From Candidatus Gastranaerophilales bacterium (GTDB lineage: Bacteria; Cyanobacteriota; Vampirovibrionia; Gastranaerophilales; Gastranaerophilaceae), in the NCBI GenBank assembly GCA_944322945.1, contig CALUQN010000012.1, positions 1-60,292 of the forward strand: a stretch of 60,292 nt of DNA, given 5' to 3'. The first letter of the stretch is position 1. Each line of letters opens with the position of its first letter. The notes beneath the pieces were generated by a model, which was not told the origin of the DNA, searched no databases, and saw only the letters and a list, made by a program, of their open reading frames with translations. A program made the translations under genes and the position numbers. Positions 1 through 47,991 of this stretch are shown here, piece after piece.

Positions 1-188
1 TTTGTGAGAGGTAAGAACCGGAGGTTCGACTCCGATTATTAAAAAACTCTCCTAAGAGAGTTAAAATGCCGATGGCCACTCTGCCGAGCAAAATATGACT
101 AAATGTCATATTTTGTGAGAGGTAAGAACCGGAGGTTCGACTCCGATTATTAAAAAACTCTCCTAAGAGAGTTAAAATGCCGATGGCC
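1..188. repeat. 111-bp-period direct repeat with tRNA-like fragments
   Basis: Bases 1-77 recur at 112-188 with no difference I can see. The 34 bp between them (78-111) includes most of an 11-bp perfect hairpin, 89-99 with 105-115, loop TAAAT. Each copy carries a T-arm-like stretch (GGAGGTTCGACTCC), the hairpin AACTCTC-CTAA-GAGAGTT, and GCCGATGGCC. In the second copy GCCGATGGCC is the 3' end of the real tRNA-Leu; in the first copy it is only a 10-base remnant. The array may continue left of the window. Simplest reading: duplication of the 3' end and terminator of tRNA-Leu together with neighbouring tRNA-derived sequence. Confidence 0.8.
152..173 (-). terminator. Terminator of tRNA-Leu
   Basis: Read on the minus strand, AACTCTC-TTAG-GAGAGTT (156-173) is followed by a run of six T. 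It lies 4 bp past the tRNA-Leu 3' end. The same hairpin occurs in the first repeat copy (45-62). Confidence 0.75.
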
Positions 189-263
189 GGAGTCGAACCG
201 GCACGGGGCGTGAACCCCACAAGATTTTGAGTCTAGCACGTCTACCAATTTCATCACATCGGC
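178..263 (-). tRNA. tRNA-Leu(CAA)
   Basis: This 86-nt leucine tRNA reads UUG codons. The acceptor stem is GCCGATG with CATCGGC and discriminator A. The D-arm contains AAATTGGTAGACG. The anticodon loop CTCAAAA (225-231) gives anticodon CAA, a long variable arm follows, and the T-arm is CCGGTTCGACTCCGG. The anticodon stem has one T-T mismatch by my fold. CCA is not encoded. The class-II variable arm plus the AAATCGG/AAATTGG D-loop style fits Leu rather than Ser. Confidence 0.93.
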
Positions 264-9570: not shown

Positions 9571-9686
9571 GGACTTATATAGCAAATTCCACAGATGCTA
9601 TAAAAACTCGTCATTCTGAGGGCATTTGCCCGAAGAATCTTTTTTTATTAAGATACTTCGCTAACGCTCAGTATGACGGAGTTTTG
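9571..9686. mobile_element. Short inverted-repeat element, copy A (right end missing)
   Basis: It starts with the family end GGACTTATATAGCAAATTCC. The interior is a large imperfect palindrome: AAAACTC-GTCATTCTGAG at the left, CTCAGTATGACGGAGTTTT at the right. The interior matches the reverse complement of copy B (11514-11653). The outer right end is absent; the 471-aa gene's stop codon lies 5 bp further on. No coding capacity. Confidence 0.7.
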
Positions 9687-11513: not shown

Positions 11514-11653
11514 AGCGTATTCCGCTAAAAATCTTAAAAACTTCGTCATACTGAGCGATAGCGAAGTATCTAAATAAAATAGATTCTTCGGGCTAAAGCC
11601 CTCAGAATGACGGAGTTTTAATAATAGTATCTGCGGAATTTGCTGTATAAGTC
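11514..11653. mobile_element. Short inverted-repeat element, copy B (complete)
   Basis: This 140-bp element has imperfect terminal inverted repeats: GGACTTATATAGCGTATTCC at the left, and GGAATTTGCTGTATAAGTC at the right, which reverse-complements to GACTTATACAGCAAATTCC. The interior contains GTCATACTGAGCGATAGCG and its partner CTCAGAATGACGGAG. It has no coding capacity and looks like a MITE. It ends 42 bp before the next gene. Confidence 0.75.
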
Positions 11654-25949: not shown

Positions 25950-26100
25950 GGACTTATGTATATGTTTCCACCCAATATACTTAAGAGATAAACATAATGT
26001 CATTCCGAACTTGTTTCGGAATCTTACCACCGGCAAGACCCTGAAACAAGTTCAGGGTGACAATTTTAGCCATTATTAGTGGAATTTGCTACATAAGTCC
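25950..26100. mobile_element. Short inverted-repeat element, copy C
   Basis: This 151-bp element begins GGACTTATGTATATGTTTCC and ends GGAATTTGCTACATAAGTCC, which reverse-complements to GGACTTATGTAGCAAATTCC. Between them is a nested palindrome (GTCATTCCGAACTTG ... CAAGTTCAGGGTGAC) different from copies A and B, so the ends are conserved but the cargo varies. A partial extra end (GGACTTATCCC) lies at 25931. Confidence 0.7.
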
Positions 26101-26119
26101 CCCAAAAACTACCAGATCA

Positions 26120-26158
26120 GGTAATTGAATAAGGTGTATGAATTACGTTTAATATAAT
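26120..26158 (+). promoter_or_regulatory. Conserved upstream block with TATAAT, sRNA copy 1
   Basis: The block GGTAATTG...GGTGTA...AATTACGTTTAA followed by TATAAT (26153-26158) is nearly identical in copy 2 (47829-47866, minus). A canonical -35 is not obvious. Conservation upstream of the putative start argues that the promoter was duplicated with the RNA. Confidence 0.5.
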
Positions 26159-26163
26159 TAAAT

Positions 26164-26224
26164 CTTTTTCATACTTCCAGCTATTCTTAATTCCAACGAG
26201 CCTTTTTTTGAGGCTCTTTTTTTT
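26164..26224 (+). ncRNA. Candidate duplicated small RNA, copy 1
   Basis: This would be an RNA of about 60 nt starting after the TATAAT. It contains CTTTTTCATACTTCCAGC and TATTCTTAATTCCAACGAGC and ends in GAGCCT-TTTTTTG-AGGCTC followed by eight T. The 5' part is identical in copy 2 on the other strand at 47768-47823, while the terminator loop differs there. No reading frame of useful length exists inside. It ends 16 bp before the DUF4186 gene, so here it could also act as a leader attenuator. Confidence 0.55.
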
Positions 26225-26240: not shown

Positions 26241-26588
26241 ATGTACGAGGAAGTATTAGAACGTTTATCAAAATCGGATTTTCGGCGAAAATTCCGTCTA
26301 AGAGAGCCTGAACTGGAATATATCAGAAAAAAAGGGATTGATGTAATATATTCACACGCACGCGACTTTATCGCAAAACGGATTGCGCCTGCCGTAATAA
26401 AAAACGACGGCAAGCAGACTCCGATGAAAGGTCATCCGGTGTTTATCGCACAGCACGCAACTGCCTGCTGCTGCCGCGGCTGCATTAATAAATGGCATCA
26501 CTTTTCTAAAAATTGTGAATTAACTCAAGCTCAACAGGATTATCTGACAGGGCTGATTATGGCGTGGATAAAAACGCAAAATAAATAG
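26241..26588 (+). CDS. DUF4186 family protein
   Basis: The protein is 115 aa. It carries the hallmark block GHPVFIAQHATACCCRGCI, then KWHHF, preceded by NDGKQTPMKGHP. His and Cys clusters suggest metal binding. The function of the family is unknown to me. The ribosome site is poor (GAATGAAAGT), which with the terminator just upstream suggests low or conditional expression. Confidence 0.85.
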   Translation: MYEEVLERLSKSDFRRKFRLREPELEYIRKKGIDVIYSHARDFIAKRIAPAVIKNDGKQTPMKGHPVFIAQHATACCCRGCINKWHHFSKNCELTQAQQDYLTGLIMAWIKTQNK

Positions 26589-34420: not shown

Positions 34421-34883
34421 GACGATAAGACGTTAAGACGATAGGACGTTAAGTTCTTTACATGGTACAAGATGTTTCTACGTATTTTTTCAGTCCTTGT
34501 AATAACGCACTTACTTTTTTGATGTGTTTTTCTAGATTTTCGTTATATGTCGTAAAACCTAAGTCTTCTGCCAAAATTAACTGTGTATCAAGTTCGGCAA
34601 TAGAGCCTAAAGCAATATCCAGAAACTTTTTTGTATCTTTATCCGAAAACCTTGTACATCCTTCAGCAATATTTGACGGAACTGAAACTACACACCGGTT
34701 AATTTGAGATGTTAATCCATAAATTTCAGTTTTGGGAAATTTTGAAGTTAATTCATAGACTTCTTTTACCAGAATTCGTGCTTCTTTCCAAACTTCCAAA
34801 TCCTTATAATACATATATACCTTTCAATATTGCCTCTTATCTTTAACAGACTTAGCGTCTTATCGTCCTAACGTCTTATCGTC
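34421..34883. mobile_element. 463-bp inverted-repeat unit carrying a four-helix-bundle gene
   Basis: 33-bp inverted repeats lie at 34421-34453 and 34851-34883, differing at three positions; each is about two copies of a 16-bp motif GACGATAAGACGTTA. They bracket one gene: the left repeat ends 4 bp from its stop codon and the right repeat begins 36 bp before its start. The right repeat begins 1 bp after the rimP stop. In the rimP-to-nusA transcript the repeats would pair, with 30 Watson-Crick and one G-U pair of 33. No target-site duplication is obvious. Confidence 0.75.
34458..34814 (-). CDS. Four-helix-bundle protein (23S rRNA intervening-sequence type)
   Basis: The protein is 118 aa. The family signature is clear: YKDLEVWKEARILVKEVYEL, FPKTEIYGLTSQINRCVVSV, PSNIAEGCTRFSDKDTKKFL and SIAELDTQLILAEDLG. 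Members were first found inside intervening sequences of 23S rRNA genes and elsewhere stand alone; their function is unknown. AAAGG lies before the ATG. The gene sits between rimP and nusA, which are normally neighbours, inside a 33-bp inverted repeat. Confidence 0.92.
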   Translation of the reverse strand: MYYKDLEVWKEARILVKEVYELTSKFPKTEIYGLTSQINRCVVSVPSNIAEGCTRFSDKDTKKFLDIALGSIAELDTQLILAEDLGFTTYNENLEKHIKKVSALLQGLKKYVETSCTM

Positions 34884-47750: not shown

Positions 47751-47767
47751 CGTTTTTGTGAGAGCCA

Positions 47768-47823
47768 AAGAAAAGAGCCCTTTCGGGCTCGTTGGAATTA
47801 AGAATAGCTGGAAGTATGAAAAA
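47768..47823 (-). ncRNA. Candidate duplicated small RNA, copy 2
   Basis: On the minus strand the same 5' region as copy 1 follows a TATAAT (47829-47834), through CTTTTTCATACTTCCAGC and AATTCCAACGAGCCC. It ends in GAGCCC-GAAA-GGGCTC and TTTTCTTT. Between the two copies the about 90-bp block differs at only a few places before the terminator, whose loop is quite different but whose GAGCC/GGCTC stem is kept. It ends 17 bp past the bioA stop and is convergent with it. Confidence 0.55.
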
Positions 47824-47828
47824 GATTA

Positions 47829-47866
47829 ATTATATTAAACGTAATTTCTACACCATAAACAATTAC
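47829..47866 (-). promoter_or_regulatory. Conserved upstream block with TATAAT, sRNA copy 2
   Basis: TATAAT at 47829-47834 and GGTAATTG at its upstream edge match copy 1 (26120-26158). The remaining gap to 48060 has a TTGACA at 47888 reading rightward, a possible -35 for the glycogen-synthase-like gene, with a poor -10 (AAAAAT, 17 bp on). Confidence 0.45.
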
Positions 47867-47991
47867 CCAACTGCGCTATTTTAGGGGTTGACAGGCATTT
47901 TTTCTTGTGCAAAAATTTATCTGCATTTCCTATAGTGTTTATTAAAAATAAATAAAGAATTGTAACAAAAATACGAGGAGAAATTTTTTGC

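Follow-up and report, generated by a model that had tools for sequence, protein, structure and literature searches.

Envelope-stress small RNAs such as RybB and MicA expose a conserved 5′ part that pairs at the starts of envelope-protein mRNAs, carry a terminator behind it, and depend on Hfq and sigma-E. Among cyanobacteria, Yfr1, an RNA of 54–69 nt found in nearly all members of the group, consists of a 5′ stem-loop of 6–10 bp, an unpaired part holding the ultraconserved undecanucleotide motif ACUCCUCACAC, and a 3′ terminator hairpin with a U tail (PMC2190773). The LhrC1-5 RNAs of Listeria (111–114 nt, with two stem-loops and UCCC motifs placed in loops and in a single-stranded stretch) are multicopy; their unpaired pyrimidine-rich segment covers the ribosome-binding sites of surface-protein mRNA, and one regulator serves them all (PMC4132741). 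For the Gastranaerophilales, common gut bacteria that form the non-photosynthetic sister group of the Cyanobacteria, a literature search for small RNAs found no sRNA and returned only a host-microRNA study in the rumen.

The window analyzed here, a 60,292-nt stretch of a Gastranaerophilales contig, carries two copies of what is, judged from its sequence, a new sRNA family of a known kind, set apart by an unstructured core of unusually high conservation. The copies lie on opposite strands (whole extents 26110–26224, plus, and 47767–47877, minus) and are built alike, with a TTGNNN–17 bp–TTTAAT promoter, an unstructured 33-nt core ATCTTTTTCATACTTCCAGCTATTCTTAATTCC, and a terminator hairpin followed by a T-run. 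Their features are as follows.

26110–26123, plus strand: copy 1, palindromic, putatively operator-like box TACCAGATCAGGTA (consensus TAnCCAnnTGGnTA), from the motif fit on 132 promoters
26125–26130, plus strand: copy 1, -35 hexamer TTGAAT (consensus TTGTAA), 17 bp from the -10
26148–26153, plus strand: copy 1, -10 hexamer TTTAAT, from the motif fit on 132 promoters
26160–26224, plus strand: copy 1, predicted sRNA transcript of ~65 nt (covariance model R1, E 3.0e-13; fold), with the start placed from the -10, ±2
26162–26195, plus strand: copy 1, invariant unpaired core ATCTTTTTCATACTTCCAGCTATTCTTAATTCCA, from the genome pattern search and the alignment of copies
26198–26224, plus strand: copy 1, intrinsic terminator with a 7-bp stem, T5 loop and T8 run, from the fold
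47864–47877, minus strand: copy 2, degenerate operator-like box AGCGCAGTTGGGTA, from the motif fit, its left half weak
47857–47862, minus strand: copy 2, -35 hexamer TTGTTT, from the motif fit
47834–47839, minus strand: copy 2, -10 hexamer TTTAAT, from the motif fit
47767–47828, minus strand: copy 2, predicted sRNA transcript of ~62 nt (model R1, E 2.4e-14, copy 2 being in the training set; fold)
47793–47826, minus strand: copy 2, invariant unpaired core equal to that of copy 1, from the pattern search
47767–47790, minus strand: copy 2, intrinsic terminator with a 6-bp stem, GAAA loop and T-run, from the fold

A repeat search of the window joined the two copies through two inverted pairs, 26161–26202 with 47786–47827 (42 nt, 100%) and 26120–26168 with 47819–47867 (49 nt, 84%), the blocks being separated, where the -10 gives way to the core, by an indel of one base (TTAAATC/TTAATC). 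This bears out a sequence-only reading of copy 1, which had described a block repeated on the opposite strand with an identical 5′ transcribed part and a single-base indel. That reading was also right about the terminator stems and T-runs, but not about their details, as copy 1 has the stem GAGCCTT/GAGGCTC around a TTTTT loop and copy 2 has GAGCCC/GGGCTC around GAAA. Similarly, the TATAAT it took for the -10 overlaps the correct location, but best spacing across 132 promoters selects the hexamer listed above. A 31-nt piece of the core, allowed up to three mismatches, matched only these two sites in the window, and 100 shuffles yielded none. Both copies fold as an open stretch of 38 nt and then the terminator hairpin (z = -3.3 each). 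Copy 1 ends, as had been remarked, just before a DUF4186 gene (start at 26241; PF13811, E 1.1e-50).

In layout and reach the closest described RNA is Yfr1, which is likewise short, with an ultraconserved unpaired motif and a terminator, and near-universal in a large sister clade. However, the Gastranaerophilales RNA is without ACUCCUCACAC, its own motif being different and three times longer; it has no 5′ stem-loop (the core, or first 33 nt, is unpaired in 112 of 124 unique sequences) and it occurs as several scattered copies. LhrC is closest in logic, being multicopy with a recognition segment over ribosome sites, but the present RNA is only ~62 nt long, contains UUCC and not UCCC, forms one stem-loop, and extends across an order. 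RybB and MicA share with it a short RNA, an exposed conserved 5′ part for mRNA starts, and a terminator behind, whereas the promoter here is sigma-70-like with a palindromic box, and Hfq of the PF17209 type was found in none of 14 genomes of the class, a search that a divergent Hfq could escape. Hfq is usual but not obligatory for trans-encoded base-pairing sRNAs; a divergent Hfq or another chaperone may act here, and the family poses the question of how an RNA of this sort operates in bacteria that show no standard Hfq. The family is considered new because Yfr1 fails on motif and 5′ stem-loop, and LhrC differs in motif, size, and structure. Rfam, searched at the gathering threshold and at E ≤ 10, had no family that could be accepted for either copy, which agrees with the sequence-only reading. 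The best weak match, GcvB (RF00022; 15.6 bits against a gathering threshold of 42, E 0.19), was rejected, and the location of copy 1 behind a GDC-P gene, with its echo of GcvB, is a coincidence.

The core is almost letter-for-letter constant across nearly the whole order. Positions 1–30 are almost invariant in 133 distinct copies, the main exception being position 19, where G/A exchange is common in some genera. The terminator is rewritten yet stays paired, with a hairpin in 124 of 124 unique terminators analyzed, at least three pair types at every stem position, a loop of mostly 4 nt, and a T-run with a mode of 8. RNAalifold on the free alignment (A1) returned no pairs because MAFFT leaves the variable stems unregistered, and stems were instead counted sequence by sequence. 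In a geometry-matched subset (the A2/R1 sequences, chosen by stem geometry), each of the six stem pairs has both of its bases replaced in some members, which, the subset being selected for pairing, illustrates the exchange and is no independent test of covariation. Both signs named beforehand as support for an sRNA, a conserved body and compensatory changes in the stem, are thus present.

With up to three mismatches, the 31-nt core pattern was found in 229 of 241 Gastranaerophilales genomes (225 of 231 good ones), usually in 1–4 copies, so the expected recurrence within genomes holds for nearly the entire order; the reversed pattern had no match in the same 241. A whole-genome search placed the copy-1 sequence in 95 of the 97 genomes of the family. 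An exact 18-nt search over one genome per species recovered at least 113 stretches, nearly all from Gastranaerophilales among the matches listed. Matches in other phyla comprised the 18-mer alone or lay at a contig edge, and three of them (L047, L094, and L096), in which nothing matches beyond the 18-mer, were dismissed as chance. By family, the core was present in every sampled genome of f2, f5, f6, and f7, in one of two of f4, and in none of 10 of f3, which represents a natural knock-out clade. Model R1 found no match in the sampled genomes of other orders of the class; two weak matches in other classes of the phylum (E 0.0018 and 0.0049 per genome) are at chance level, because the ~185 unmatched genomes would yield as many. 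One genome (G138) carries 9 to 11 copies. A third copy in the home genome, at C22:6240-6299 (model R1, E 1.9e-5), has diverged: in it (L003, 1446–1560) the UUUUUCAU part is lost, while ATACTTCCA, CTTAATTCCA, and the palindrome are kept; it adjoins an aspartokinase gene, where other genera have ordinary copies. A 33-nt core frozen in nearly every genome marks a central regulatory RNA, with a reach comparable to that of Yfr1 in Cyanobacteria.

A motif fit to 132 upstream regions returned TAnCCAnnTGGnTA, then AATTG (-35 TTGTAA), 17 bp, and TTTAAT or TTAAAT as the -10; the best-spaced hexamers were TTGNNN–17 bp–T(T/A)(T/A)AAT. The degenerate palindrome abuts the -35 and has a strong consensus, its halves showing no covariation, as would be expected of a site read by a protein and not of an RNA stem. 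In the 1.75 Mb of sequence fetched, the strict palindrome had 18 sites, of which 17 belong to sRNA genes (the diverged copy among them), and a swapped control had none. Because sRNA loci are over-represented in that sequence, these figures express association and not genome-wide specificity. An operator scan found no wider regulon, the strict palindrome lying almost only at sRNA genes. Taken together, the box is suggestive of a dimeric class of regulator acting on the sRNA promoter. Some sRNA genes (L172, L140, and L106) have a second palindrome in tandem, about 112 bp from the core, where it separates the sRNA from a divergent small-protein gene (MITINPVKFN...; 32 loci), an arrangement that suggests shared control of the two genes.

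The reverse complement of the core, GGAATTAAGAATAGCTGGAAGTATGAAAAAGAT, looks like the beginning of a gene for a secreted protein. Targets were sought in the home genome among 377 start regions (~0.47 Mb on two contigs, about 22% of the genome), with start codons assigned by a simple rule and duplex energies that ignore target structure. The top-scoring match, to a XerD-like gene, had a misplaced start and was discarded. The third-best duplex (-23.5 kcal/mol) belongs to a secreted M48 peptidase (PF01435; G000:C1:23365), whose site, TTGGAATTAAGAGGATATATGT and ATGAAAAAATT, offers two blocks of 10 perfect pairs each to both ends of the core, and orthologs within the home genus keep this complementarity. 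Outside the home genus, a first M48 set averaged -18.6 kcal/mol, and signal-peptide controls whose starts carry Lys/Arg averaged -12.7 (p = 6e-9). The means were -20.2 and -14.2 with both groups restricted to ATGAAAA starts (p = 1e-6), and -11.1 and -7.6 with pairing limited to the 5′ UTR and the core's 3′ part. These p-values, like those that follow for M48, overstate independence, M48 having been chosen for its high home-genome score and the genomes being related. Of 150 dinucleotide-shuffled cores, none reached the full-region difference and one reached that of the 5′ UTR. A later set, 32 genes taken in order of protein similarity without regard to pairing, had a mean of -16.6 (p = 5e-7), with 17 of 19 other genera below the control mean; with the reversed core, M48 and control regions differed little. 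Some genera (g8, g17, and g50) had no M48 excess, and a second M48 gene, the home paralog, showed no pairing (-11.7; genus mates -11.8 and -13.9). The M48 genes of family f3, which is without the RNA, averaged -12.8 versus -17.6 (p = 0.012, n = 6). From this complementarity, the secreted M48 metalloprotease is probably the clearest and best-supported target, and the earlier suggestion that TTTTTCATACTTCCAGC could pair with ribosome sites gains support in a narrower version, involving the start codon, lysine codons, and upstream region of M48 protease mRNAs. Two blocks of ~10 nt in one mRNA leave the 33 frozen nucleotides unexplained, which indicates further targets or a protein partner.

Other candidates fared variably. 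A LolA-like secreted protein scored -20 in the home genus and -12.3 outside it and was dropped, the site not being kept. A search with the two-block pattern gave mostly chance sites but pointed to TRL-like secreted proteins, which averaged -15.9 outside the founding gene and paired more strongly than the LolA-like family used as a control (p = 0.0013, certainty here too being overstated by the relatedness of the genomes); in genomes that lack the RNA, the four TRL genes ranged from -11.8 to -12.9. These proteins constitute a weaker second candidate target on predicted pairing. Other strong sites exist in single genomes, and no LSU rRNA was found in the home assembly. In one genome (G044), the start region GAATTAAGAGGAGTTTTATTATGAAAA occurs six times (L286) ahead of very short reading frames, possibly as a repeat family mimicking an sRNA target.

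We consider it probable, with moderate confidence, that these genes form a family of trans-acting base-pairing sRNAs whose core pairs with the starts of secreted-protein mRNAs, M48 being the best supported, with repression as the predicted outcome. As is general for trans-encoded sRNAs, each gene is intergenic with its own promoter and intrinsic terminator, and its conserved exposed segment is, in statistical terms, complementary to unlinked mRNA starts. Each would be transcribed from its sigma-70-type promoter, probably under a dedicated regulator bound to the palindrome beside the -35, to give an RNA of ~60–65 nt with an open, invariant 33-nt core followed by the terminator. Within the cell, the 5′ part of the core, UUUUUCAUAC, would bind GUAUGAAAAA, the start codon and Lys codons of the signal peptide, and the 3′ part, UCUUAAUUCC, would bind GGAAUUAAGA upstream; pairing over the start region would then block ribosome binding, repressing rather than activating the target, and the RNA may thereby help to control the cell envelope or secretome. 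A bolder version, which we regard as unlikely, would make it an order-wide, apparently Hfq-free riboregulator, joining a 5′ antisense of the generic signal-peptide start (AUG AAA AAG AU) to an upstream discriminator, such that a small set of identical RNAs would tune the synthesis of secreted proteins (M48, TRL-like, and others) under one dedicated transcription factor and the 33 nt would be frozen by many overlapping targets.

There is a small chance that the invariant core is instead a protein-binding site, for an RNA chaperone, an RNase, or a sequestered translational regulator, with mRNA complementarity secondary: 33 frozen nucleotides on an open strand exceed the needs of most antisense seeds, and multiple copies per genome recall Rsm/Csr sponges (PMC4132741). 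Against this, the complementarity to M48 starts is significant and peculiar to the core's true base order, and no short motif, such as GGA, recurs within the core. A base-pairing sRNA with other mRNAs or RNAs as its main targets, the M48 signal being minor or a product of features common to secreted starts, is rather more doubtful. Such targets would account for the conservation of every core position, the middle GCTAT included, for the strong sites elsewhere in single genomes, and for the TRL-like genes exceeding their control, and the target scan covered about a fifth of the home genome; yet the M48 excess persists when the signal-peptide genes compared are matched for ATGAAAA, and also when the 5′ UTR is taken by itself.

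Copies scattered over many loci, in either orientation, might also be produced by a mobile or decaying repeat, such as a transposon end or MITE, that carries a promoter and terminator by accident. This is very improbable, as copy number is low and stable and the core hardly varies, while the terminator changes in sequence yet remains paired, the pattern on which the sequence-only reading had preferred a selected sRNA to a transposed fragment. Conservation into long flanks, which would have spoken for the fragment, was looked for and not seen; similarity ends at the promoter and terminator, and therefore a segmental duplication does not explain the copies. The least credible alternative is a short coding gene or leader peptide: spurious ORFs cross some loci, but the core contains no ATG, GTG, or TTG, third-position variation is absent, and the nucleotides themselves are conserved whichever frame is read.

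The window contains several other repeats. REP-like inverted repeats based on GTCATTCCGAAC and GTCATTCTGAGG occur at 25998–26062, directly upstream of sRNA copy 1, and at 9601–9685 and 11537–11620, the latter two forming arms around a gene. A perfect 77-nt direct repeat (1–77 and 112–188) lies at the left edge and overlaps the end of a tRNA gene (178–263, minus strand), and degenerate GACGATAAGACGTTAAG repeats stand in inverted orientation at 34421–34454 and 34850–34883, on either side of a small ORF.
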